A stretch of 64,000 nt of DNA from the NCBI RefSeq assembly GCF_010671565.1, contig NZ_JAABOQ010000003.1, forward strand, positions 372,001-436,000, in the 5' to 3' direction. The notes under the pieces were generated by a model. It searched no databases. It was given only the letters and a program-made list of their open reading frames with translations, and was not told the DNA's origin. The position numbers and the translations under genes are program-made. Positions 3,487 through 53,603 of this stretch are shown in pieces; the first letter of the stretch is position 1; the number at the start of each line of letters is the position of its first letter. This DNA is from Spongiivirga citrea. Its GTDB lineage: Bacteria > Bacteroidota > Bacteroidia > Flavobacteriales > Flavobacteriaceae.

Positions 3487-6267
3487 ATGTTTCAAGATAC
3501 TTTTATTAAAACGCTTATCGCTGACGTACTTTCTAAACATCAAACGATTGATAAGCTGGTATTTATACTCCCAAGTAAACGGGCTGGGGTATTTTTGCTG
3601 CATGAACTCAAAAAGCAAATAGCGAAGACCACCTTCGCCCCCAAGATTATTAGTATTGAAGAATTTATATGTGAATTATCAGGTCTTCAGTCTGCGGATA
3701 ATGCACAATTGCTATTTGAATTTTATCGCGTTTATTCCGATCTAACACCGCCCGGAAGTCAAGACTCTTTTGAGGCCTTCTCGACCTGGGCGCAAATACT
3801 TTTACAAGATTTTAATGAGATAGATCGCTATCTAGTTCCGCCTTATGAAATACTGAACTATTTAAGTGAAATAAAAGACTTGGAGCATTGGTCCTTGAAA
3901 CCTGAAAAGTCAGAGATGGTAAAAAATTATCTCATTTTTTGGAGTAGATTATACACCTATTATGACAACTACGCCAAAAGCCTACTTGAGCAAAAAAAAG
4001 CGTATCAGGGATTAATTTATAGAGAAGCTGCTAATCAAGTTTCGGGCTACGCAAAGATGACCAAGCATCATCATATTTTTGCTGGTTTCAATGCCTTAAA
4101 TAATGCTGAGCAAACTATTTTCCAAGAGCTTTTAACTGAAAACAAAGCAAGTGTCTATTGGGATACCGATAGTACTTTTATGAATGACGATATCCATGCA
4201 GCCTCCATATTTCTGCGCAATTATAAAAAGTCGTGGCACTATTATCAATCCAATTCCTTCAACTGGGAGTTTGACACTTTTGCCGGCACTAAGAATATTC
4301 AAATAAAAGGCATCCCAAAAAACATTGGTCAGGCTAAATATGTGGGCCATCTTTTAAGCAAGCTTGTTGATAACGATGCATCACTTCAAAAAACCGCAGT
4401 TATTTTAGGTGATGAGCAATTATTAATTCCCATTTTAAATGCCGTTCCCGCTACTATTCAAAATATGAATATTACCATGGGATTCCCATTACACGCTGCG
4501 CCTATTGCGACCATATTCGAATTATTATTCAACCTTCATAGTAAAGAGCAAGAACAGCTGTATTATCAGGATATCATCCATATTGTTTCGCATCCGAACA
4601 TTCGGCAGTTGCTTTCTTTAAATGAGTCAGATCAGTCCCAACGTATCATTGACCATTTACAGAAAAACAACATCATTTTTAGTTCGCTTACGCAATTGAC
4701 AGACTTGGTCACTTCTGAGACTAAATTGACCATTCAATTGTTATTTGATGGTTGGAAGAATAGTCCAAAAAATGCCATTCATCAATTGCAACAACTTATT
4801 CTTCTATTAAAAAGACAGACTCAAGAAAGTCCGCATACCGATAATTTGTTGCTAGAATATCTCTATCGATTTCATCAATTATTCAATCAGTTACAGCAAC
4901 TAAATGAAACCTATCAATATTTAAAATCCACTAAGGGGCTTCATAAAATATATAAGGAGTTACTTAGTATCGAAACCTTAGATTTTCAGGGCGAACCATT
5001 GGAGGGATTACAACTTATGGGAGTTCTAGAATCTCGTGTTTTGGACTTTGAAACTGTTATTATCACCAATGTTAATGAGGGCGTATTTCCTTCAGGTAAA
5101 ACACAAAACTCCTTTCTTCCTTTTGAGTTGAAATTGCAATATAAATTACCCACCTATCAGGAAAAAGATGCTATTTACACCTATCACTTTTACAAGCAAT
5201 TGCAACGTGCAAAAAATATCTATTTGCTTTACAACACGGAGGCTGATGCTTTAAATGCAGGTGAAAAAAGTCGATTTATTAATCAGCTAGAAATTGAAAG
5301 GCAGCCTGAACATACAATCACGCATGAGTTGATAAATGCAAATGTTCCTAAGATCGATAATGCCCTACAAAGCATTGATAAAAATAAAGATGTTCTCAAC
5401 CGTTTAAAAGAAATCGCTGCTAAAGGATTTTCTCCTTCTGCTTTGACAAGCTACATCCGGAATCCGATTGATTTCTTCAACAAGAAAATACTTAGAATTC
5501 AAACCTATGATGAAGTTGAAGAAACAGTTGCCGCCAATACTTTGGGAACGATAGTTCATGAAACCTTAAAAGAATTTTATCTCCCATTAATTAATGTGAT
5601 TTTAACCGAGACCCACATTACAACAATGCAGCAACAAATAGATAAAACAGTTACCCGATATTTCAAAAAGGAATATCAAAGCGATACGATTAATGAAGGA
5701 ATGAACCTTATTATATTCAATATCGCTAAACGCTATGTCGAGAATTTTTTACGAAGTGAATTAGAAGAAGTCAAAAACGGCAGTACTATTAAAATACTAC
5801 ATATTGAAGAAGATTTTAGTGCTCCCGTGACCATTGAAGGCTTTGATTTTCCAATCAATGTACATGGCCAAGTAGATCGGGTAGACGAGTATAATGGAAC
5901 GATGCGTATCATCGACTATAAAACCGGAAAAGTACTTCCGGGAAAAGTAAGACTGTATGATTGGGATTTAATCAATACGGATTATGACAAGTACAGCAAA
6001 AGTTTTCAGGTGCTATGCTATGCCTATATGCTGCATTATAAAAAGCCATTTACTGGTAAGGCAGAAGCTGGAATTATCTCATTTAAAAACCAAAAAGATG
6101 GTTTTTTAAAGTTCGGAGTAAAACCCACGCCTCGTTCCACGAAAGCAGATACAGAAATCACTCCAGAGGTGCTCTCTGAATTTTCAATTCAATTAAAAGC
6201 TTTGATTAAAGAGCTATTCGATCTATCGAAACCATTTGTAGAAAAACGCATTGAGTATGATTATTAA
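3487..6267 (+). CDS. AddB-type PD-(D/E)XK nuclease / inactivated helicase-like protein
   Basis: A 926-residue protein resembling the AddB subunit of the AddAB double-strand-break processing enzyme. The N-terminus has the Bacteroidota variant of the first helicase motif (ILPSKRAG), which is not a canonical Walker A, and the middle region keeps helicase-like segments such as NVNEGVFPSG. The C-terminal third is the nuclease: SPSALTSYIRNP, LGTIVHETLKEFY, GQVDRVDEYNG and IIDYKTGKV supply the His, Asp and Asp-x-Lys catalytic set. I see no C-terminal cysteine cluster of the kind that holds the Fe-S site in Bacillus AddB. The AddA-like partner is at the left edge of the window, separated by kbl and the OmpA gene. 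Starts at ATG 3487; overlaps the next gene by 11 nt, so they are probably co-transcribed. Confidence 0.87.
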   Translation: MFQDTFIKTLIADVLSKHQTIDKLVFILPSKRAGVFLLHELKKQIAKTTFAPKIISIEEFICELSGLQSADNAQLLFEFYRVYSDLTPPGSQDSFEAFSTWAQILLQDFNEIDRYLVPPYEILNYLSEIKDLEHWSLKPEKSEMVKNYLIFWSRLYTYYDNYAKSLLEQKKAYQGLIYREAANQVSGYAKMTKHHHIFAGFNALNNAEQTIFQELLTENKASVYWDTDSTFMNDDIHAASIFLRNYKKSWHYYQSNSFNWEFDTFAGTKNIQIKGIPKNIGQAKYVGHLLSKLVDNDASLQKTAVILGDEQLLIPILNAVPATIQNMNITMGFPLHAAPIATIFELLFNLHSKEQEQLYYQDIIHIVSHPNIRQLLSLNESDQSQRIIDHLQKNNIIFSSLTQLTDLVTSETKLTIQLLFDGWKNSPKNAIHQLQQLILLLKRQTQESPHTDNLLLEYLYRFHQLFNQLQQLNETYQYLKSTKGLHKIYKELLSIETLDFQGEPLEGLQLMGVLESRVLDFETVIITNVNEGVFPSGKTQNSFLPFELKLQYKLPTYQEKDAIYTYHFYKQLQRAKNIYLLYNTEADALNAGEKSRFINQLEIERQPEHTITHELINANVPKIDNALQSIDKNKDVLNRLKEIAAKGFSPSALTSYIRNPIDFFNKKILRIQTYDEVEETVAANTLGTIVHETLKEFYLPLINVILTETHITTMQQQIDKTVTRYFKKEYQSDTINEGMNLIIFNIAKRYVENFLRSELEEVKNGSTIKILHIEEDFSAPVTIEGFDFPINVHGQVDRVDEYNGTMRIIDYKTGKVLPGKVRLYDWDLINTDYDKYSKSFQVLCYAYMLHYKKPFTGKAEAGIISFKNQKDGFLKFGVKPTPRSTKADTEITPEVLSEFSIQLKALIKELFDLSKPFVEKRIEYDY

Positions 6268-43589: not shown

Positions 43590-43681
43590 ATTTATAACTT
43601 TTTATGGTGTTATTGTTATGTTTTGCTAAAGTAGTAAATGGTATTTCAAATAAAGATAATTCATCTCGAAATTTAGCACCA

Positions 43682-43709
43682 CTTATTCCTGTAAAACCTC
43701 CACTTAAAG
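43682..43709 (+). promoter_or_regulatory. Direct-repeat candidate LytTR site upstream of the kinase operon
   Basis: CCACTTA at 43682-43688 and again at 43703-43709, 21 nt start to start. The 28-nt block is identical at 23 positions to the one at 46589-46616. LytTR regulators bind direct repeats with this kind of two-turn spacing. Unlike the other two sites, no TAnnTTTG follows at 35 nt, so here it could act in autoregulation through another promoter, or on the divergent ALDH gene. Confidence 0.55.
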
Positions 43710-43836
43710 TTTGTTAGATACCAACTAAAGTGTGGGCATAGGAAAATCCCCCTAATTAATTCAAATTGAAGGTCCGAACTTTAATATTTCGTATCTTAAT
43801 ATGTTGCACCAATGCAGCTGACTAAGACTTTGTGTC

Positions 43837-45825
43837 ATGAGAAACATCATTTCCTCCTTAACAGTCATTATCTTCTTAATTAGTTCATCCAAAGTAGTGG
43901 GTCAGATCAATCCCAAAATTGATAGTCTGAAACAAGTTTTAACTACTTCAGCAACCGACTCTGCCAAAGTTCAGCTATATGGGCAAATAGCTTGGGCCTA
44001 TGCGAGTACAAGAATACAAACAGCAGAAGCAAGAACTTATGCTGACAGCATTAGACTTATAGCCGAGCGCACCCAAGACCAATATTATATTGCTAGATAC
44101 AATTTCTATTACGGTGTAGTCGATCGATTAGAAGGCAAGAATAATTCTGGGATTTACCATATGAACAAATATGTTGCGTACAACAAAAGGCAAGGTGACT
44201 CTTCAAGAGTTGCTGGAGGTTTGTTTCAGATAGCAGCTATGCAATCAGCAATGGGAGTCTATGAGAAAGCAATTGCTACTCATTACAGAGTGTTGTCAAT
44301 TGAAGAACAGAATAATGATCAAAATGGGATTGCCTACACTAAACAAGGTATTGGGATTGCACTGTTTGAAACCCAACGTCATAATGAAGCACTGGTATAT
44401 TTAAATGAAGCATTAGCCCTCTATAAAAAACTAAATCGTCTTGGTGGTCAGGCCAATGTCCATGTTACTCTTGGCAATGTATATACCCAAATGAGTAATA
44501 TTGAAGATGCAAAAGAAAATTACGAGCAAGCCCTAAGAAATTTCAAAAAAATTAATTCGCCATGGGGTATTGCTTTAACCCAATCTAATATTGGTCACTT
44601 AAATGAAAAAACGGGAAATTTTAACGATTCAAAAAGCAATCATCTAAAGGCTTTAAAAATCCGAGAATCTCTTCCAAATAAAGAACTCCTTACAAGAAGT
44701 TTATTGGCTGTTGGAGTTGTTCATCATCACGACAAAGAGTACAACAAGGCATTGGAGTATTTTAATAGGGCAAAAAAAACGGCTAAAGAAACGGACTCTA
44801 AATCATTAATGAGAGATATTCAATTTCGAATGAGCGAAACTTTTGCCGCAATGAACAACTATAAAGCGGCCTTTGAAGCAAGAACTGCCCAAATGATATT
44901 AAAAGACAGCATTTATGATAAAACCAAAGCCCATCAAATCGCTGATTTACAAACCAAGTACGAAACGGAACAAAAAGACAAAGAAATCCTGACTCTAACA
45001 AGAGAAAATGAAATTCAACAGGTCAAAGCCGATACACAAACTACCATAAAAAATGCTGTTATAGGGGGGATATTCTTAATAGGCATTATCGCTGGATTGA
45101 TTATTTACAACTTGCGACAGCGTTTGAAATCGCAAAAACTTCTCCTTGCAAAAAATGAACAACTTAAAAATGCAAAACTAAAAGAACAGCTTCAAGATTT
45201 AGAGATGAAAGCCCTGCGTGCACAAATGAATCCGCACTTTTTGTTTAATTGTTTAAATGCAATCAACACGATGATTCTTCAAAATGATGGCGACAATGCC
45301 TCACGGTATCTGGCTAAATTCTCAAAATTGGTCCGGCTTATTCTTGAAAATTCGGAACAGCAGAAAGTATCATTAAAAGATGAGCTAGACATGTTGGAAT
45401 CGTATATTCAATTAGAGGCTATCCGTTTTAACAACAAAATGGATTATGATATTAATGTAGACGAGTCTATTGATCAGTTCAATACCTTTATTCCTTCTAT
45501 GGTATTGCAACCTTTTGTTGAAAATGGAATATGGCATGGACTACTGCATAAAGAGAAAAAGGGCTTGTTAACCATCAATATAAAAGAAAACAATGACGAT
45601 CTACTCTGTGAAATTATTGACAATGGTATTGGGCGTGAAAAATCATTAAGTCTTGAAAAGCAAGAACATCTCAAGAAAAAATCAATGGGCATTAAGATTA
45701 CGACAGAACGTCTAAAAATACTGACTCAGCAAAAAATGAATGAACTTGTTAATATCATCGATCTAAAAGATGAAAACAACAATGCCCTTGGAACTAAAGT
45801 TAATATTGCAATCCCAACTTCATGA
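43837..45825 (+). CDS. LytS-type sensor histidine kinase with periplasmic TPR domain
   Basis: 662 residues. Signal peptide (to about residue 23), a periplasmic domain of about six TPR units (residues ~40-370, e.g. AYTKQGIGIALFETQRHNEALVYL), a coiled coil, one transmembrane helix (VIGGIFLIGIIAGLIIYNL, about 407-425), and a cytoplasmic LytS-type kinase core: LRAQMNPHFLFNCLNAINTM with His467, PSMVLQPFVENGIWHG and DNGIGREKS in the ATP-binding part. It probably senses a periplasmic or surface signal through the TPRs and phosphorylates the LytTR regulator encoded next, whose ATG overlaps its stop. Such TPR-LytS/LytTR pairs are frequent in Bacteroidota; the ligand is unknown. Confidence 0.93.
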   Translation: MRNIISSLTVIIFLISSSKVVGQINPKIDSLKQVLTTSATDSAKVQLYGQIAWAYASTRIQTAEARTYADSIRLIAERTQDQYYIARYNFYYGVVDRLEGKNNSGIYHMNKYVAYNKRQGDSSRVAGGLFQIAAMQSAMGVYEKAIATHYRVLSIEEQNNDQNGIAYTKQGIGIALFETQRHNEALVYLNEALALYKKLNRLGGQANVHVTLGNVYTQMSNIEDAKENYEQALRNFKKINSPWGIALTQSNIGHLNEKTGNFNDSKSNHLKALKIRESLPNKELLTRSLLAVGVVHHHDKEYNKALEYFNRAKKTAKETDSKSLMRDIQFRMSETFAAMNNYKAAFEARTAQMILKDSIYDKTKAHQIADLQTKYETEQKDKEILTLTRENEIQQVKADTQTTIKNAVIGGIFLIGIIAGLIIYNLRQRLKSQKLLLAKNEQLKNAKLKEQLQDLEMKALRAQMNPHFLFNCLNAINTMILQNDGDNASRYLAKFSKLVRLILENSEQQKVSLKDELDMLESYIQLEAIRFNNKMDYDINVDESIDQFNTFIPSMVLQPFVENGIWHGLLHKEKKGLLTINIKENNDDLLCEIIDNGIGREKSLSLEKQEHLKKKSMGIKITTERLKILTQQKMNELVNIIDLKDENNNALGTKVNIAIPTS

Positions 45826-46568
45826 CTAGAGCGATCATAATAGACGACGAAGAGGGCGCTCGTGAGGGCCTCAGCCTTTTAATGCAAAAGTATTGTGCTG
45901 ATGTAGAAATATTGGCCCTGTGCAATGGGGGCAAACAAGGTATAGAAGCAATTCATACCTATAAACCCGAACTTGTTTTTCTTGATGTACAAATGCCAGG
46001 AATGTCTGGTTTTCAAATGCTGGAAACACTTGGTAACATCGATTTTGAGATCATTTTTGTGACGGCATATGATAAATATGCCATTAAAGCAATTAAGTTT
46101 AGCGCACTTGATTACCTGTTAAAACCGGTCGATATAGATGATCTAATCAAATCAGTACAAAAAGTACAACAAAAACAGTTTCAGAAACAGCAGGCAGGTT
46201 TTCAATCATTGTTGAATAATATGAGTCAGATACAAGATGAGCTTACCCGACTGGCAATCCCCTCAGATAATGAGATTATCATGCAAGAAGTTAAAGATAT
46301 TGTTTATTGTGAAGCTGATAGTAGTTATACCACTATTCATATTGCAAATGATAAAAAGTTGACGGTGTCAAAAACCTTAAAGGAATTTGAGATCATTCTT
46401 CCAGAAACGAAATTTTGCCGGATTCATCATGGAACCTTGGTTAACATTGAACATGTTTCTAAGTATATAAAGGGAGAAGGTGGTTATGTAATCGTTTCCA
46501 ACGGGCAGCATCTCAACGTTTCTCGTCGAAAAAAAGAGTCTTTCATTCAAATGCTTTCCAAAGTGTAG
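45822..46568 (+). CDS. LytTR-type response regulator
   Basis: 248 residues. Receiver domain 1-120 with the acidic pocket IIDDEEG, phosphoacceptor Asp55 in VFLDVQMPG, Thr in VTAYDKYA and the conserved Lys in LLKPVD. A linker of about 25 residues with a glutamine-rich coil leads to the LytTR DNA-binding domain (about 145-245): IVYCEADSSYTTIHI, KFCRIHHGTLVNIEHV and VIVSNGQHLNVSRRKK. LytTR proteins bind pairs of direct repeats and usually activate transcription. Translation is coupled to the kinase (ATGA overlap). Candidate target sites are the 21-nt-spaced repeats at 43682, 46589 and 53547. Confidence 0.94.
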   Translation: MTRAIIIDDEEGAREGLSLLMQKYCADVEILALCNGGKQGIEAIHTYKPELVFLDVQMPGMSGFQMLETLGNIDFEIIFVTAYDKYAIKAIKFSALDYLLKPVDIDDLIKSVQKVQQKQFQKQQAGFQSLLNNMSQIQDELTRLAIPSDNEIIMQEVKDIVYCEADSSYTTIHIANDKKLTVSKTLKEFEIILPETKFCRIHHGTLVNIEHVSKYIKGEGGYVIVSNGQHLNVSRRKKESFIQMLSKV

Positions 46569-46588
46569 CTTGTACTTCGGACTAAATT

Positions 46589-46658
46589 ACACTTATCCCT
46601 TTTTAACCTCCACTTACTAGTTTCCCATAGTAACTGCTTCGATATCAATATAGTTTTG
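46589..46658 (+). promoter_or_regulatory. LytTR-like direct repeat and -7 element of the first LRR operon
   Basis: ACACTTA at 46589-46595 and CCACTTA at 46610-46616 (21 nt start to start), then TAGTTTTG at 46651-46658, which fits TAnnTTTG. There is no TTG -33 box, as expected for a promoter that needs an activator. From the last base of the second heptamer to the first base of the -7 element is 35 nt, the same as at the LRR gene on the other strand (53547 to 53512). The start would be near 46664, 23 nt before the ATG at 46687. Confidence 0.6.
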
Positions 46659-46686
46659 ATCCTGTTAATCAATTACAAACAAGATC

Positions 46687-46881
46687 ATGAAAAACTATCG
46701 ACGAATCAATTTATCATTTAGTGTATCATTAATTCTCGCTGCAATTATTCTGGCAATATGCATGTCATGTGAAGATGATGATGCCATACCGCAACAAGAC
46801 CCTAATCAAGATCCGCCACCAACAGAAGGTTCCGTTGGCCTAAAAAATTTAAACAATAATGCAATGTTGTTTTACTGCTAA
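46687..46881 (+). CDS. Small lipoprotein, first gene of the LRR operon
   Basis: 64 residues. A signal with lipobox ICMSC ends at Cys28; after it come an acidic EDDDAIPQQDP stretch, proline and glutamine, and a short tail GLKNLNNNAMLFYC. No domain is recognisable. It could be a true small lipoprotein or the remnant of a longer one cut by a stop codon; the abrupt hydrophobic end with a final Cys hints at the second. The predicted LytTR-dependent promoter lies immediately upstream, so whatever it is, it would be the first thing transcribed from it. Confidence 0.6.
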   Translation: MKNYRRINLSFSVSLILAAIILAICMSCEDDDAIPQQDPNQDPPPTEGSVGLKNLNNNAMLFYC

Positions 46882-46898
46882 TATGCTGTTTAACAAAA

Positions 46899-46961
46899 GG
46901 GAGGTTTTATGCCGTTGTTTTCAACGCTAAGAAGAGTATTCTTTTTTGGTAAAAACCTCCT
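46899..46961 (+). other. Possible structured leader (three-way junction) before the LRR gene
   Basis: An outer stem of nine perfect pairs plus one G:T (46899-46908 with 46952-46961) closes two inner hairpins: CGTTG-TTTT-CAACG (46913-46926) and AAGAA-GAGTA-TTCTT (46929-46943). It lies between the small lipoprotein stop and the LRR start (46990). It may be an RNA element controlling LRR expression; no known riboswitch class is recognised. Confidence 0.4.
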
Positions 46962-46989
46962 CATTGCTTTATCTAAAAACAAAACAATC

Positions 46990-48429
46990 ATGAAACATTC
47001 AAAACATATTTTAGTTGGTTTTATTTTCATTTTAGCCCTTGCTTCTTGCAAGAAAGACGACGATTCTCCTTTAGATATTCCTAATAATCCACCTGTGGCC
47101 GAGGAAATTGCTGAAGATTATGAAGCGCTTAAGGCACTGTACAATGCCAACCCAAATAATAATCTCGATTGGGACTTAGACGACAAAACCTTAAAAAGCT
47201 GGGAAGGTTTGACCCTTGTAAATGATCGCGTGACTGAAATTCGAATTCCCACAAAAGGAATAGACAAATTACCTCCAGCTATTGGCACTATCAGCGAATT
47301 AAAAGTACTCGGATTATTGGACAACACTATCTCGGTAATTCCAGCCACTATAGTGGCACTAAAAAAACTAGAGGTGTTGAATTTAGAAGGAAATAAATTA
47401 GAAGGTTTACTTCCAGAAATTAGTCAGATGACAAGCTTGAAGTTCCTTAGTTTAAAAAGCAACCAACTAAGAGATTTACCATACGATATGGACGAATTGA
47501 CCGCACTTGCAGTACTTGATATTGAAGATAACGTGCTGATTAAAATTCCATATGAAATATGTATTCTTGAAGAAAACGGGACTAACGTGATTAAGAATCC
47601 AAGAACAGAATGTGATTTAGTCAACTACCATTATAGGGGCCTAAAAGCCTTGAATGATGCAAACCCAAATAACATATTAAGTTGGGATTTAAATGATACG
47701 ACTATGGCTAGTTGGGCCGACATAATTCTTGCGAACGAAGGAATAGTTGAAGAACTTGACCTACAATCAAAGGGCTTATCAACTATCCCTAAAGAAATCG
47801 GAAATTTACTCGGCTTAAAATACCTTAACCTAACAAGCAATGGGATAACTCAACTTCCTGATGAATTTACGAGGCTTACGAGTTTAATGGTTCTAGATAT
47901 GGAAGAAAACAGTCTGTCTGGCCTTCCTAATGCATTTGGAAAGTTAAATAACCTAATTGAACTAGACCTTTCAGAAAACCTATTGGTGTCATTGCCAGAA
48001 TCAATAGGAATTATTCGGAATCTTGAAACAATTGATCTTACAGAAAATTTATTGAAGAAACTTCCTGAGTCAATAACCAATTTGTCAATGCTAAGAAGTC
48101 TTGATGCGGATAATAATGCCTTAGAGATTATTCCAATTTCAATTGGTGATCTTCAAAATTTACAGAACCTAGATTTAGAAGATAATAACATAGAGCTAAT
48201 CCCACAAAGTATTAAAGATTTACAAAGTATTGATGTAATAAACTTAGAAAATAATAAAATCGCAATACTGCCACAAGAGATAACGCAACTAGCCACGTTA
48301 AGAGTGTTTTCGTTTTCTGGAAATCCACTACAAGGTCCATTAACAATAGAGCTCTGTGATCTTCACATTCAGGGAATATTGTACTTAGATGCAGATCAAC
48401 TTACTACCTCAGGCTGCCCTACACCATAA
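46990..48429 (+). CDS. Leucine-rich-repeat lipoprotein with two LRRNT-like caps
   Basis: 479 residues. Lipobox LASC (Cys20). Two similar modules follow. Each opens with a cap of the form D/NY-x3-LKAL-x2-ANPNN-x-L-x-WDL-x-D-x-T-x3-W-x2 (from about residues 43 and 213), comparable to the plant LRRNT cap with its conserved Trp. Each is followed by typical 23-residue LRRs such as LEVLNLEGNKLEGLLPEI and LIELDLSENLLVSLPESI. The first has about five repeats, the second about nine. LRR solenoids bind proteins; as a lipoprotein it is probably on the cell surface. The true start is ATG 46990; an upstream in-frame ATG at 46909 lies inside the structured leader. Paralogue at 50645-53485. Confidence 0.88.
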   Translation: MKHSKHILVGFIFILALASCKKDDDSPLDIPNNPPVAEEIAEDYEALKALYNANPNNNLDWDLDDKTLKSWEGLTLVNDRVTEIRIPTKGIDKLPPAIGTISELKVLGLLDNTISVIPATIVALKKLEVLNLEGNKLEGLLPEISQMTSLKFLSLKSNQLRDLPYDMDELTALAVLDIEDNVLIKIPYEICILEENGTNVIKNPRTECDLVNYHYRGLKALNDANPNNILSWDLNDTTMASWADIILANEGIVEELDLQSKGLSTIPKEIGNLLGLKYLNLTSNGITQLPDEFTRLTSLMVLDMEENSLSGLPNAFGKLNNLIELDLSENLLVSLPESIGIIRNLETIDLTENLLKKLPESITNLSMLRSLDADNNALEIIPISIGDLQNLQNLDLEDNNIELIPQSIKDLQSIDVINLENNKIAILPQEITQLATLRVFSFSGNPLQGPLTIELCDLHIQGILYLDADQLTTSGCPTP

Positions 48430-48440
48430 ATACTACAGTA

Positions 48441-49049
48441 ATGAAAAATTTCAAAAATATCTCCAGAATTGCGATGATAATATCTATATGTTTCTTCTTA
48501 CCAAATAGAGTCGAGGCACAACTAAGAAAAACTACGGTGGTAAAACAAACCACTGTAAAACGCGGAGTTATAAGAAAAAGACCGGTTAAAGTACGACGTG
48601 TCGCTCATGTTCGCTACCGACATTTGCCAAGATGGGGTGCTACTGTAAGACGAATTGGCTTTGGCTATCGAACAATCGCTTACAGAGGGGTCGGTTTTAG
48701 GTTTTATAAAGGCATTTGGTATCGACCAAGTGGGCGACGACTTGTTGTTGCACGAGCACCTTTTGGTGTCCGTGTAAAGGTATTACCTGTAGGCTATAGC
48801 CGATTTGTTATCGGACTACGCCCCTACTTTTATTATTACGGAACTTTTTACACAAAAGTCGATGGAACCGATGAATACCAAGTTGTTGAACCACCAATAG
48901 GTGCGGAAATCGATGCGCTTCCTGACGGATATAAGATTGTCGAAGTTAATGGACAAGAATACTATAAACTTGAAAACACTTATTACGAAGCACACATCGA
49001 TGATAACGAAAATGAATATTATGTCGTAGTGGCTGACCCTACCAGATAA
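48441..49049 (+). CDS. DUF6515 family protein (basic, secreted)
   Basis: 202 residues. Signal peptide ending near RVEAQ. A very basic stretch (about 27-70, with KRGVIRKRPVKVRRVAHVRYR) is followed by the DUF6515 core: FRFYKGIWYRPSGRRLVVARAP, GVRVKVLPVGYSRFVIG, YYGTFYTKVDG and VVEPPIGAEIDALPDGYKIV. The family is found in Bacteroidota and Proteobacteria with unknown role. The charge suggests binding to polyanions such as surface polysaccharide or DNA. It is 11 nt downstream of the LRR gene, in the same operon. Confidence 0.85.
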   Translation: MKNFKNISRIAMIISICFFLPNRVEAQLRKTTVVKQTTVKRGVIRKRPVKVRRVAHVRYRHLPRWGATVRRIGFGYRTIAYRGVGFRFYKGIWYRPSGRRLVVARAPFGVRVKVLPVGYSRFVIGLRPYFYYYGTFYTKVDGTDEYQVVEPPIGAEIDALPDGYKIVEVNGQEYYKLENTYYEAHIDDNENEYYVVVADPTR

Positions 49050-49069
49050 TTCAATAAAACTTAGGACTA

Positions 49070-50035
49070 ATGAATAAAATAACACCTATATCCTATCTAT
49101 TCTTGCCGATAATATTTAGCCTTTGCTTTGGATGCAATAAAGATGACTCTTCTAAAGTAAATACAGTTATAAATAATGTAGGCAGCCGTATAGATATTAC
49201 TACTATGAATAATGGTGATGAACGCACCTACATCATTTATATACCCAGTACTTATAATCCTGAAAAAGAACACCCTCTTGTATTTCAATTACATGGGGGT
49301 TCAGGTAATGGTGAAAAGTTTTACAACATATCCGGATGGAACGATATTGCCGAGGAGAATGGGTTAATTATCGTATATCCTACTTCATTTGCCTACGATA
49401 TGAAAAATAATGGCTGTGGTAATAATCGTGTGACGCATTGGAATAATTACAATTTACCTAGTGAAGTTTGCAATGTGAATGACCTAAGAGATGAAACTAA
49501 CTTTTTAAACCAAGTCATTAACGAGGTAAAAGCTAGTTATACTATTGATGAAAGTCGGATATATATGGCCGGATTTTCACGTGGTTCAGGAATGGTAAAT
49601 AGGTTGGGAATTGAATTATCAAATAAGATAACTGCTGTTGGTGGCTTAGCTGGGTTTTTACCTGGTGATACCATTTACACTCCACAACGAAAACTACCTA
49701 TTCATATTATGTTGGGCACGCTGGATGAGAAAATTGCTTCCCAAACCATATTCAATACTGAAATTCCGTTTGATTTAGATGAAATGTTAGATGACCCTGG
49801 CTTAAAAGATATCCTTAAAACCTATATAGCCAGCTATAACCTTGACCCTAATTACACTCTTATACATAGTTCTGCAAGCGGAAGAACCTATCGCTTTGAA
49901 GGTAACTCAGGAGCTCCAGAAAATGTAATGCTCTTTTCATTGCTAAAAGATGTTACTCATGTGTTTCCAAACCCGCCAATAGAAGCCGGAGCCGCAGATA
50001 TATTCTGGAAGTTTTTTCAGCAGTACTCGCTTTAA
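49070..50035 (+). CDS. Esterase lipoprotein, PHB-depolymerase/LpqC type
   Basis: 321 residues. Lipobox-like signal ending at Cys22 (CFGC). Alpha/beta-hydrolase of the poly(3-hydroxybutyrate) depolymerase / feruloyl esterase type: oxyanion segment VFQLHGGSGNGE, nucleophile Ser170 in AGFSRGSGM, Asp in MLGTLDEKI, His in DVTHVFPNPP. Between them lies a CGNNR...CNVND segment that may form a disulfide. It probably cleaves ester bonds in polymers or glycans at the cell surface. It is 20 nt downstream of the DUF6515 gene, fourth in the LRR operon. Substrate unknown. Confidence 0.85.
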   Translation: MNKITPISYLFLPIIFSLCFGCNKDDSSKVNTVINNVGSRIDITTMNNGDERTYIIYIPSTYNPEKEHPLVFQLHGGSGNGEKFYNISGWNDIAEENGLIIVYPTSFAYDMKNNGCGNNRVTHWNNYNLPSEVCNVNDLRDETNFLNQVINEVKASYTIDESRIYMAGFSRGSGMVNRLGIELSNKITAVGGLAGFLPGDTIYTPQRKLPIHIMLGTLDEKIASQTIFNTEIPFDLDEMLDDPGLKDILKTYIASYNLDPNYTLIHSSASGRTYRFEGNSGAPENVMLFSLLKDVTHVFPNPPIEAGAADIFWKFFQQYSL

Positions 50036-50079
50036 TTCTTTAAGTCCTCCTCCAACCTCCTTAAAAAATTTCCTTTCTA

Positions 50080-50574
50080 ATGTCTAACCATCGAAAAAAT
50101 AGAGCTAAAAAGCATCTCGATATCCTTTTATCCGATTTTATGGATGTTGTTGACTATTTACAGAATCAAAATAAAAGCCAGCGGCATAAAAGAGCGAAGT
50201 CGCTTCTAATAAGCTATATCGCAGATCTAAACACCCACTATCCTTCTCTTCTAAGAAAAGTACTTGAACACAAAACACTCTCCGGAATTCAGCTAAAACT
50301 AGAGCAGTTATATTACTTTCACATTCAGTCACTTTGCACTTCTAATAGTTTTCATTGTTTAATTAAACTATTTATAAAAGGGCATGATAATATGGTAGCT
50401 ATGATCGATCTTATAAATGATGACCAATGGGATCTGCACTTAAAAACTACTTCTACTAGCTATAAATATTTAACTGTCGAAGATATCTTTTGTTTGCTTA
50501 TTCCTAATGATTTCGAATCGCAATGTTTGGAAATCATCCGAATTATAGAAACTAAAAATACAACCCCTAATTAG
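50080..50574 (+). CDS. Hypothetical helical protein, last gene of the LRR operon
   Basis: 164 residues, no signal peptide, helical and mixed in charge, with several cysteines and histidines. It begins with basic NHRKNRAKKHLDILLSDFMDVVDYL and includes LIKLFIKGHDNMVAMIDLI and YLTVEDIFCLLIPNDF. I do not recognise a family. The 44-nt gap from the esterase gene holds no promoter that I can see, and a terminator follows at once, so it is the probable end of the LRR transcript. Confidence 0.65.
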   Translation: MSNHRKNRAKKHLDILLSDFMDVVDYLQNQNKSQRHKRAKSLLISYIADLNTHYPSLLRKVLEHKTLSGIQLKLEQLYYFHIQSLCTSNSFHCLIKLFIKGHDNMVAMIDLINDDQWDLHLKTTSTSYKYLTVEDIFCLLIPNDFESQCLEIIRIIETKNTTPN

Positions 50575-50583
50575 TTAAAATAA

Positions 50584-50612
50584 AAAGCCGATACTTATTT
50601 TGTATCGGCTTT
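50584..50612. terminator. Bidirectional terminator between the two LRR loci
   Basis: A perfect 11-bp stem (50584-50594 with 50602-50612) with a 7-nt loop, between the convergent transcripts ending at 50574 (plus) and 50645 (minus). Confidence 0.88.
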
Positions 50613-50644
50613 CTATTTCTTGCTTTAGCGTTAATACACTGTTC

Positions 50645-53485
50645 TTATTGGGAACAGATGGCGTCAATGTCTCCATCAATTCTAATTGTAGTATTGACAC
50701 TACCTCCGGTACGCATATCACATATACGGCCTGGTAAATCAGTTACATTAGTAAGACGCAAATCCAGCAACGCTAAGTTGATCAATCCATCAAGAGCGCC
50801 TGGTAATTCTTGAAGATCACTGTTATTGTTTAGGTGCAGCTCTGTTAAACTTTCTATAGTGCCTATTTCATTTGGTATTGCATCCTTCTTTTTTAATAGG
50901 TTGCGGCTTACATCAAGAATTAAAAGACTCGGGAAATTACTGAATGAAACCGGTATTTCTTCCAGCTTGTTTTCTCGAATATACAGTTCCTCCAAAGCAA
51001 CCAGGCGTGTAGCCATACTCCCAGAGGGGAAATCGGCTTCAGTAAGTTTATTATTAGACAATATTAACTCCCTCAAATTTTTGAGATTGCCAAGAACGAT
51101 ATTGACTTCTCCTTCTAATTGGTTATTAAAGAGGGATAGTTCTTCAAGCCAAACCATATTACCTACAACATCTGGAATACTGGTGAAATTATTATTTAGG
51201 AGCCATAGGTTTTTCACGCCTGTCAAACCGACTATGCTTGGTGGCAATGTGTTCAGCTCATTTTCAGAAATCAAAAACGTTTCCAGGCTTGTCAAACCAG
51301 TTAATGTATCCGGAATCGCTACAATCTTATTATTTGATAGATCGCAATACACTAATTTACCAAGATTGCCAAAGCTGTTGGGTAGGGTTGCCAATTTATT
51401 TCCATACACATTTAGGTTCTCTAGGTTTTGCAAGTTTCCTAAATCTGCAGGAAGCTCAAGTAACAATTTCTTTCCAGTAAAAGAGGGCGCACCTCTAGAA
51501 CTAAGCTGAACCAAATTGGTTAATTGCGAAACGCTATTAGGAAGATATTCAAAATTATTGCCTCCGACTTTAAGAATTTCTAAGGCGGTTAAATTTCCAA
51601 TTTCATCTGGTAATTCCTGAAGTACGTTCTCGTCAACGTAAATAGCTTTAAGCGAAGAAAGTTGGCCGATCTCTTTTGGAAGTAAAGACATTTCATTCCC
51701 CGTCAACTGTAAAACTTGCAGTCCATCTAATTGACCAAAAGTTGAAGGTAATAGATCAATATTCATATAACGGGCGTCTAATTGTACTACCCTTCCTGCA
51801 TCAATAAAAACTCCCCCCCAACTAGCCATGGTTTCATCTGTAATGTCCCAATCAAGTCTATTGTTAGGGTTTTGCTCATAAAGATCTTTTAAAACTTCAT
51901 AATCACTTTGTAAAACAGGAGTATCGTCAGTACATAATGAGTCATCATCTACTAAAATAGTTATGGGAACACCGTTGACTTCTTGTGAGCATACTTCTTC
52001 AGGTATTTCTGTGATATCGTTCTCTCGCAAATCGAGTGTATTTAGTGAAAGAAGGTTTGCTAATTCAACAGGAATGCTGGTAATCTGGTTATTTCTTAAT
52101 AACAAGCTGTTTAAATTTTCAATATTGGCTATCGAAATTGGGATTTCAGTAATCTCGTTACCTTCAAAATTTAAAGACAGTATGTTCTTCATAGTGGTCA
52201 ACACTGAAGGAATTTCAATTAAATTATTATTAGCTAATGATAAACTTAGAGCTAACGTCATTGATACAATTTCATCTGGTAAAGAACTGAGTTGATTGTT
52301 GTCTAAGTTTAAACTCGTTAACTTATCAAGCTGTCCCATTTCTATTGGTAATTCCGTTATGACATTATCGGATAAATTAAGTGATTGTAAACCTATTAAT
52401 GAGCCTATTTCACTAGTAATATTGGGGAACTTTTTGCCTGAAATGTCGAGGCCAATAACAACACCGTCATCAGTTACCGTTACTCCTTCCCAACTTTTCA
52501 TAGTGCCATCTGCAAGATCCCAATTAACCGTATTATCAGGATTTTGAAGTAATAAATTATATAATGCAACATAGTTTGGATATAAGGTTCCACAAACTGT
52601 GGTCGCATCTCTTTTGATAGTCGTCCCAATGGTTTCGAGATCGCATATTTGCTGTGGTAAGACTCCTATTTCATTTTTTGTAAAGTCTAAACTATCTAAA
52701 CTCGTCATATTACCTATTTCTACAGGGACAATAACTAGTTCATTATCACTTAAATCAAGCTGTTTAATATTTTGAAGTTGTCCAATACTAGCGGGTAACC
52801 CTAAAAGTTGATTATTACTTAAATCAATTTTCTCAACGGCAACCAGTTTATTGATTCGTGAGGGCACTGCTGAAATTAAGTTACTGCTCAAGTCAAGGCG
52901 AATTAATTTGGCTAATCCCTCTATTTGAAAAGGGATGTCAGTAATTTCATTCTGACTAAGATCGAGCTCTACTAAGTTTATAAGCTGTCCAATTTCCGTG
53001 GGAATCGTGCTAATTTTATTCCCTTTAAAATTGATTTTAGCAAGTGCAGTTAAACCACTAACACTAGCTGGTATGCTTGCTATTTCATTTCCAACAAATG
53101 AGAGTTCGGTTAGTTTAAGGTTCTTGCTAATGTCAGAAGGAAAAGAAGTGATTACATTACTATCAGCTTTAAAAGAAGTTAGTTCATCAAGCTCTCCGAT
53201 CTTTGCAGGTATGGTTTTAAGGCCTTTTTTAAAGAGATCAAGCTTGGTTACTTTTTCTCCCGAAGTGGTAACGCCTTCCCAGCTTTTCATGCTTAGGTCA
53301 TCAAAATTCCAGTTCAAGCTATTGCCATTGTTAGCATCATAAACGGACTTTAATACCAAATAATCTGCGGGGAATTGTTGTATGCCTTCATCAATAATAT
53401 CATCATCCTTGTCGCATGCTATAAGGATAAATACTAGAAATATCATGGGGGAGATTAAGCGTAAAAAAAGTCTTGTAGTTTTCAT
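50645..53485 (-). CDS. Large leucine-rich-repeat lipoprotein with three LRRNT-like caps
   Basis: 946 residues. Lipobox LIAC (Cys24). Three modules, each starting with a cap containing the SW-x-GV signature: about residue 41 (DYLVLKSVYDANNGNSLNW), 304 (NYVALYNLLLQNPDNTVNW) and 528 (DYEVLKDLYEQNPNNRLDW). Each cap is followed by a run of 23-residue LRRs (LxxLxLxxNxLxxLPxxI) and, for the first two, a closing block with a cysteine (ICDLETIG..., EVCSQEVNG). The whole ends in a CDMRTGGSVNTTI block with a final Cys. It is a longer paralogue of the protein at 46990. Predicted to be a surface solenoid for protein or ligand binding. The promoter region carries the LytTR-like repeat. Confidence 0.88.
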   Translation of the reverse strand: MKTTRLFLRLISPMIFLVFILIACDKDDDIIDEGIQQFPADYLVLKSVYDANNGNSLNWNFDDLSMKSWEGVTTSGEKVTKLDLFKKGLKTIPAKIGELDELTSFKADSNVITSFPSDISKNLKLTELSFVGNEIASIPASVSGLTALAKINFKGNKISTIPTEIGQLINLVELDLSQNEITDIPFQIEGLAKLIRLDLSSNLISAVPSRINKLVAVEKIDLSNNQLLGLPASIGQLQNIKQLDLSDNELVIVPVEIGNMTSLDSLDFTKNEIGVLPQQICDLETIGTTIKRDATTVCGTLYPNYVALYNLLLQNPDNTVNWDLADGTMKSWEGVTVTDDGVVIGLDISGKKFPNITSEIGSLIGLQSLNLSDNVITELPIEMGQLDKLTSLNLDNNQLSSLPDEIVSMTLALSLSLANNNLIEIPSVLTTMKNILSLNFEGNEITEIPISIANIENLNSLLLRNNQITSIPVELANLLSLNTLDLRENDITEIPEEVCSQEVNGVPITILVDDDSLCTDDTPVLQSDYEVLKDLYEQNPNNRLDWDITDETMASWGGVFIDAGRVVQLDARYMNIDLLPSTFGQLDGLQVLQLTGNEMSLLPKEIGQLSSLKAIYVDENVLQELPDEIGNLTALEILKVGGNNFEYLPNSVSQLTNLVQLSSRGAPSFTGKKLLLELPADLGNLQNLENLNVYGNKLATLPNSFGNLGKLVYCDLSNNKIVAIPDTLTGLTSLETFLISENELNTLPPSIVGLTGVKNLWLLNNNFTSIPDVVGNMVWLEELSLFNNQLEGEVNIVLGNLKNLRELILSNNKLTEADFPSGSMATRLVALEELYIRENKLEEIPVSFSNFPSLLILDVSRNLLKKKDAIPNEIGTIESLTELHLNNNSDLQELPGALDGLINLALLDLRLTNVTDLPGRICDMRTGGSVNTTIRIDGDIDAICSQ

Positions 53486-53504
53486 GATAAATATGTTTTA
53501 TCAT

Positions 53505-53574
53505 CAAACTTACTAGTAAACCCCAGTGAAGAAAATACTAAATAAGTATATGGGAACGAGGCCTGACTAAGTGG
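53505..53574 (-). promoter_or_regulatory. LytTR-like direct repeat and -7 element of the large LRR gene
   Basis: On the minus strand: CCACTTA (53574-53568), then CCATATA (53553-53547, five of seven positions shared), 21 nt start to start, then TAAGTTTG (53512-53505), which fits TAnnTTTG. From the last base of the second heptamer to the first base of the -7 element is 35 nt, exactly as at 46616-46651. The heptamers are conserved but the spacer is not, as expected for protein half-sites. Confidence 0.5.
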
Positions 53575-53603
53575 TCATGCTTTGTAGATAAATGGTTGAG
53601 AAC

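Follow-up and report, generated by a model that had tools for sequence, protein, structure and literature searches.

The window analysed in this study is a stretch of 64,000 nucleotides from Spongiivirga citrea (genome G000; contig NZ_JAABOQ010000003.1, positions 372,001 to 436,000), and coordinates given without a contig refer to this window. It contains two adjoining plus-strand genes encoding a sensor kinase (43837..45825) and a response regulator (45822..46568). The kinase, recognised from Pfam PF06580, TPRs, hydropathy and its motif, has a hydrophobic N-terminus, a TPR region, one membrane segment (~403-427) and a His_kinase domain with the NPHFLFN motif. Its N-terminus is probably a signal peptide, and the TPR region is predicted to be periplasmic. 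The regulator combines a receiver domain (PF00072), whose Asp55 lies within an FLDxQMP motif present in all 11 orthologue rows, with a LytTR DNA-binding domain (PF04397; 67.5 bits against a cut-off of 22.6). Relatives with the receiver domain and with the LRR fold were found among the best 60 matches listed in a PDB search. Judged by its sequence, the pair belongs to the LytS/LytTR type of two-component system: a PF06580 kinase with a membrane segment adjoins the regulator, and direct repeats of ~9 bp, 10-13 bp apart, stand upstream of the promoter, as in the definition drawn from parts of PMC11347149 and PMC6193735.

The repeats form arrays of a unit, ACCACTTA, recurring every 21 nt; described by a weight matrix, it approximates ACCACTTACT. 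The kinase gene is preceded by a three-box array (43679..43727, plus strand) consisting of CCACTTA at 43679 and 43700 and CCAACTA at 43721. The original prediction had reported the first pair as two heptamers at 43682 and 43703; the two CCACTTA words and their 21-nt spacing are there, 3 nt away from that position. Upstream of the LRR1 operon lies a two-box array (46589..46616, plus strand; ACACTTA at 46589, CCACTTA at 46610), with no box at the in-register position 46568. Upstream of LRR2, on the minus strand, are three boxes (53547..53595; CCATTTA at 53595, CCACTTA at 53574, CCATATA at 53553). The heptamer pairs claimed for these two sites, 46589/46610 and 53574/53553, were confirmed by direct reading, CCATATA differing from CCACTTA at 2 of 7 bases, and a recount again gave 23 bases in common between the first two 28-nt blocks. 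What had been overlooked are the third boxes, in register at two of the three sites (53595, minus strand, and 43721). Hence, three direct repeats at two-turn spacing are present except at LRR1, which has two boxes.

At both LRR promoters a putative -7 element lies 34 nt past the last box: TAGTTTTG (46651..46658, plus strand) for LRR1 and TAAGTTTG (53505..53512, minus strand) for LRR2. This agrees with the claimed TAnnTTTG on opposite strands, which begins 35 nt past the last heptamer base (34 nt between) at 46651 and, on the minus strand, at 53512. Downstream of the kinase-gene array (43679..43727), TAnnTTTR is absent at 34 nt.

The first open reading frame behind the LRR1 promoter encodes a 64-aa lipoprotein-like protein (SC-EDDD; 46687..46881, plus strand). 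It is followed by LRR lipoprotein 1 (46909..48429, plus strand; likely true start 46990), with the lipobox LASC and then KKDDD, and, each after a short gap, by a DUF6515 protein (48441..49049, plus strand) and an esterase-like protein (Esterase_PHB/Abhydrolase_2; 49070..50035, plus strand). LRR lipoprotein 2 (50645..53485, minus strand) has the lipobox LIAC, then DKDDD. The CKKDDD of LRR1 and the CDKDDD of LRR2 fit the surface lipoprotein export signal C-X-K-(D/E)2 that follows the lipobox cysteine (PMC5080379, in part). The targets appear to be lipoproteins with surface-type signals, and a position at the cell surface is predicted. At the place equivalent to that of the 64-aa frame, genome G383 (L092) has a 56-aa frame of similar layout, SCRGDDD.

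Recurrence of the arrays in related genomes

We searched 397 genomes of the family for the regulator and found it in 19 at E 1e-62 and in 10, the own genome included, at E 1e-75, a cut chosen afterwards. These 10 genomes hold 11 regulator loci, as G167 carries two copies; 19 regions were fetched. The regulators at the ten relative loci with a kinase/LytTR pair are 47-67% identical to the one described here. Another eleven loci, from a named genome collection, were set aside as too distant or unrelated. Behind the regulator, LRR genes and the esterase gene recur in G262, G423 and G275, and the DUF6515 gene also in G262 and G423, where the gene order is kept. The esterases of these three genomes are 56-57% identical; G335 has a distant relative of it (35%), and G383 retains the DUF6515 gene. 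An LRR gene lies downstream of both G167 regulator copies, and another lipoprotein-like protein is encoded behind the regulator in G150, G349 and G011.

A motif-free test was applied to 23 intergenic regions (3 from the window; 10 preceding the kinase gene and 10 following the regulator gene), scoring threefold repeats at lags 11-45. The mean triple score was 16.96 at lag 21, the next highest being 13.26, and lag 21 ranked top in 18 of the 23 regions, three of them as ties. It was not first at the LRR1 site, with its two boxes, before the kinase gene in G275 and G335, or in either region of the first G167 copy. In later sets, some bounds were set wider, and for G275 the region before the kinase gene gave way to that in front of its neighbouring LRR gene; for these regions, the maximum over 40 mononucleotide shuffles was 13.57, compared with 17.17 observed.

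The weight matrix detected arrays in all 3 regions of the window and in 15/20 of the relatives, making 18 of 23 overall. Five relative regions lack one: on the kinase side those of G011, of G335 and of the two G167 copies, and on the regulator side that of the first G167 copy. Thus, both regions of that first copy are without an array, though an LRR gene and a gene of the lipoprotein family described below stand downstream. Arrays are present in nine genera (genus labels from the tool), and of the 10 genomes with an orthologue, 9 have a match of the composite pattern of boxes and promoter element at its locus. No lag-21 excess before a TAnnTTTR was seen at nine regulator loci of lower identity (39-44%).

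The distance to the promoter element was then counted over arrays chosen by their boxes alone. TAnnTTT[AG] stands exactly 34 nt past the last box in 12 of the 18 arrays, window included, and within the 112-nt rows it occurs at no other offset; with longer reach, one further occurrence appears 76 nt past the array in G383. Leaving out the two LRR sites, the element is found in 10/16 arrays (P ~3e-25, binomial, kinship of the rows ignored). The element accompanies 11 of the 12 arrays that lie behind the regulator gene or precede an LRR gene; the exception, G011, has TAGATTGG in the same register. The alignment of the arrays is gap-free through the -7 element, and most of the DNA between the boxes is not conserved. 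Altogether, the comparison of genomes with the same pair, proposed at the outset as a check, turned out favourably: orthologous pairs and LRR genes are again accompanied by arrays, and both the 21-nt spacing and the 34 nt to TAnnTTT(A/G) are kept.

Genome-wide matches and an unlinked lipoprotein family

As a genome-wide marker, the bare heptamer pair fails. With up to 2 mismatches it gave 43 matches, compared with 54 for the reversed pattern, which is background, and we rejected it. Allowing at most 1 mismatch, there are 7 matches in 4.15 Mb, 3 of them inside these 10 kb; given the first pair, the probability that at least two of the other six fall within the 10 kb is ~9e-5. The third local pair at this stringency is 53595/53574 and not the 53574/53553 of the original prediction. 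With the -7 element added and up to 3 mismatches allowed, the pair gave 3 matches, compared with 2 for the reversed pattern. The best two, with 1 and 2 mismatches, are those at the LRR promoters; the third, with 3 mismatches, is on contig C12. Three boxes without the promoter element, searched in 20 genomes, were not clearly above the reversed control in the listed rows, none of which is from G000. The motif-free test in relatives is stronger evidence than these chance statistics of the window. The composite pattern matched in 59 of 397 genomes and its reversed control in 28 of 397 (counted by eye from the table). Because the control was hit that often, composite matches away from the regulator were not taken as evidence unless their neighbours had been inspected.

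A sequence-only model, R1, was built from the 18 arrays and run on 10 genomes. Its training sites match by construction, 150 first-look candidates were scored per genome (150 of 2922 in G000), and its E-values are rough by the tool's own statement. In G000, R1 returned the three training sites and one new match with E 3e-8, the next having E 0.02. This new match (contig C12, 527732-527833, minus strand) is the same as the third match of the pair with the -7 element. Directly downstream is the gene for a 386-aa lipoprotein-like protein with no Pfam match, so that a further site upstream of a lipoprotein gene exists in the genome, as had been predicted. Near the other LRR proteins of G000 (contigs C13 and C14), no R1 match was present among the scored candidates.

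Homologues of the C12 lipoprotein are encoded directly behind the regulator and an array in G150 (E 3e-22), G011 (E 2e-20) and G349. In G167 a homologue is the second gene behind both regulators, with an array only at the second copy. At a threshold that missed the G335 member, 5 of the 397 genomes had the family, and each of these also has the regulator. Its co-occurrence with the regulator has P 3e-9 for the 10 genomes at E 1e-75 and P 1.5e-7 for the 19 at E 1e-62, kinship ignored in both. We inspected the neighbours of nine weaker R1 matches, and only the one in G335 (E 6e-5) precedes a member of the C12 family. The other eight do not: two on G167 C5, one within an open reading frame on G150 C34, and one each on G383 C2, G335 C29, G011 C14, G275 C4 and G349 C5. 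A match on G423 C7 is a simple repeat, judging from its sequence.

Proposed mechanism, alternatives and known systems

Taking these data together, we consider it highly probable that this LytS/LytTR pair acts through arrays of boxes 21 nt apart, and that it most likely activates the promoters of surface-type lipoprotein genes. In the mechanism we propose, the kinase would sense something periplasmic via its TPR region and, its motifs being intact, would phosphorylate the regulator. The LytTR domains would then bind head-to-tail boxes ACCACTTAn, one per 21 nt and usually three; as 21 nt corresponds to two helical turns, the boxes would face the same side of the helix. Between the end of the last 9-bp box and TAnnTTT(A/G) lie 33 nt. 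In Flavobacterium psychrophilum, TAnnTTTG spans -12 to -5 (PMC9723704, in part), and the box end would therefore fall at about -46. This is the position of published LytTR activators, so the bound regulator would most likely help to recruit RNA polymerase. Activation of the targets is what this geometry suggests. The putative targets are the LRR1, DUF6515 and esterase genes, LRR2 and the unlinked C12 lipoprotein gene, and the array of the kinase/regulator operon may serve autoregulation. The case for autoregulation is less clear than that for control of the lipoprotein genes, because the arrays before the kinase gene have the 34-nt element in 1 of 6 cases and lack it in 5. The sites without it are 43679-43769 of the window and those of G262, G423, G150 and G349.

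The missing elements could also mean that the regulator represses, or that it activates the lipoprotein promoters while repressing its own operon. Among LytTR proteins with three direct repeats, there is a precedent for repression in CoxC (PMC11347149, in part). However, the operator of CoxC overlaps the -35 region, whereas the arrays described here end at about -46, the LytTR activator position, and we regard repression as unlikely. Still less probable is that the arrays are bound by a LytTR protein other than the neighbouring regulator. The genome does encode 24 LytTR proteins, G143 has similar CCACTTATTAC boxes and, in the stretches fetched, no LytTR match, and the first G167 copy has no array. 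Against this, composite matches lie at the locus of this very orthologue in 9 of the 10 genomes carrying it, the C12 family co-occurs with it, and the boxes differ at the two G000 paralogues whose arrays are clear. That the repeats arose by chance, or belong to a mobile element in AT-rich DNA, is extremely improbable: the two-heptamer pattern at 2 mismatches does occur at background rate, but the motif-free lag peak, the fixed 34-nt distance, the new match with a fitting neighbour and the mostly unconserved inter-box DNA speak against it, and the spread over nine genera (tool's labels) already contradicts it.

Activation through the arrays by the neighbouring regulator thus remains our preferred reading. 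Most of the predictions that can be examined in sequence came out favourably, and the original reading is well supported at that level, with two amendments. The site usually has three boxes, and the regulon, envisaged as a local one of LRR lipoproteins, a DUF6515 protein and an esterase, keeps these members and is not purely local, given the unlinked C12 gene. A word placed every two helical turns at a fixed promoter distance would make the targets of this regulator readable from sequence. What emerges is a predicted regulator, site and promoter geometry with a small set of targets, to which a family with no Pfam match is tied by co-occurrence. In addition, the role of LRR surface lipoproteins becomes testable through the switch.

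The resemblance of the heptamer to LytTR sites was borne out: the published LytTR box is matched, in identical orientation to the promoter (PMC6193735). The available parts of that source give ACCACTTAT-12-ACCGCTTAT for BrsR and ACCACTTAC-12-ACCACTTAC for another regulator. Summing its rows, we placed the -10 hexamer mostly 32-34 nt past the box (BrsR 31, SMU_294 27), compared with 33 here. The HdrRM/BrsRM systems are also similar in the 9-bp length of their direct repeats (ACCACTTAn, for example), in the gap of mostly 12 bp, in the same orientation, and in having an autoregulatory site plus target sites. Accordingly, the activator position known from streptococci is suggested to hold with the TAnnTTTG promoters of Bacteroidota. 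Those systems differ in having two boxes, where three are usual here, and other target genes, and in pairing the regulator with an inhibitory membrane protein (PMC6193735, in part). The pair is therefore not an LRS, which has such a partner and no kinase: the regulator carries a receiver and its partner is a kinase.

RcoM1 and CoxC likewise have three direct repeats, with gaps of 12-13 bp for RcoM1, but their boxes are TTCNNGCA or TTNNNGCN instead of CCACTTA. They are CO-responsive one-component proteins of proteobacteria, of which CoxC represses (PMC11347149, in part). Our regulator does not belong with them, as it has a receiver in place of a CO-sensing domain fused to LytTR, and its box is CCACTTA and not TTCNNGCA. 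Closer in phylogeny, the LRS-like operons of Bacteroides, also Bacteroidota, have repeats upstream of a TATCTTTG promoter at a similar distance (11 + 4 + 19 nt after an 11-mer). These are two 11-bp repeats of other sequence, the regulator is membrane-spanning, and the source terms the function of these operons presumable (PMC6193735, in part). As published LytTR sites, three-repeat ones included, are matched, this kind of site is already known. In the open-licence literature, we found no paper by title on a LytTR site for a two-component pair of Bacteroidota, and none naming the targets of such regulators. By their description, the LRR proteins recall the tandem LRR proteins of F. psychrophilum, thought to be secreted adhesins and induced by fish plasma (PMC9723704, in part); the main text of that paper does not mention LytTR.

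Other LytTR genes and a possible general code

The same layout might be a general code of Bacteroidota, in which many LytTR two-component regulators act at boxes of their own, three at exactly 21 nt, before TAnnTTTR. We put this forward tentatively, as a possibility that falls somewhat short of being probable. Such a code would fix the last box ~31-34 nt before TAnnTTTR, depending on box register, and, if true, would make many orphan LytTR regulons readable from genome sequence.

Among the other 23 LytTR loci of G000, two places have clear arrays with different boxes. On contig C9 (L198, oriented ~5290-5385), three TCAAATTCT-type boxes at 21 nt lie between two LytTR genes. G026 retains this array with an unchanged distance to the promoter (by eye), and lag 21 ties for second there; in both L198 and the G026 orthologue L289, TATCTTTA or TAGTTTTA follows AAATTCT at 31 nt (by eye). 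On contig C10 (L216, oriented ~5290-5400), three TCATAAAAC-type boxes, again 21 nt apart, stand behind a LytTR gene together with TAGCTTTA, the -7 element lying a few nt farther. Orthologues of the C9 and C10 regulators were found at E 1e-75 in 2/319 and 1/319 genomes, own included, and little footprinting of these arrays is therefore possible. The idea that all LytTR paralogues of G000 have three-box arrays nearby was rejected: over 81 intergenic stretches of the 23 loci (two of which overlap, so that one stretch was counted twice), lag 21 was mildly the highest, with a mean of 13.65 and the next highest at 13.17. Six stretches scored at least 18 at lag 21, compared with at most 3 at any other lag.

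From the composite-pattern matches in other genomes, 17 arrays were picked for their array-like look. Six of them stand beside a LytTR gene, 5 of these 6 with a kinase-like neighbour, and they include two pairs from one genus each. These six are three-box arrays of CCATTTATACA, CCATTTATT or similar, at L222 and L223 (G434, G282), L228 and L229 (G166, G360), L231 and L234. Dispersed intergenic CCACTTATTAC boxes at 21 nt occur at L218, L219 and L220 (G143) and at L253 and L259 (G167 C5), and may represent another LytTR regulon. At L219, the second gene downstream encodes a protein with a T9SS C-terminal sorting domain.
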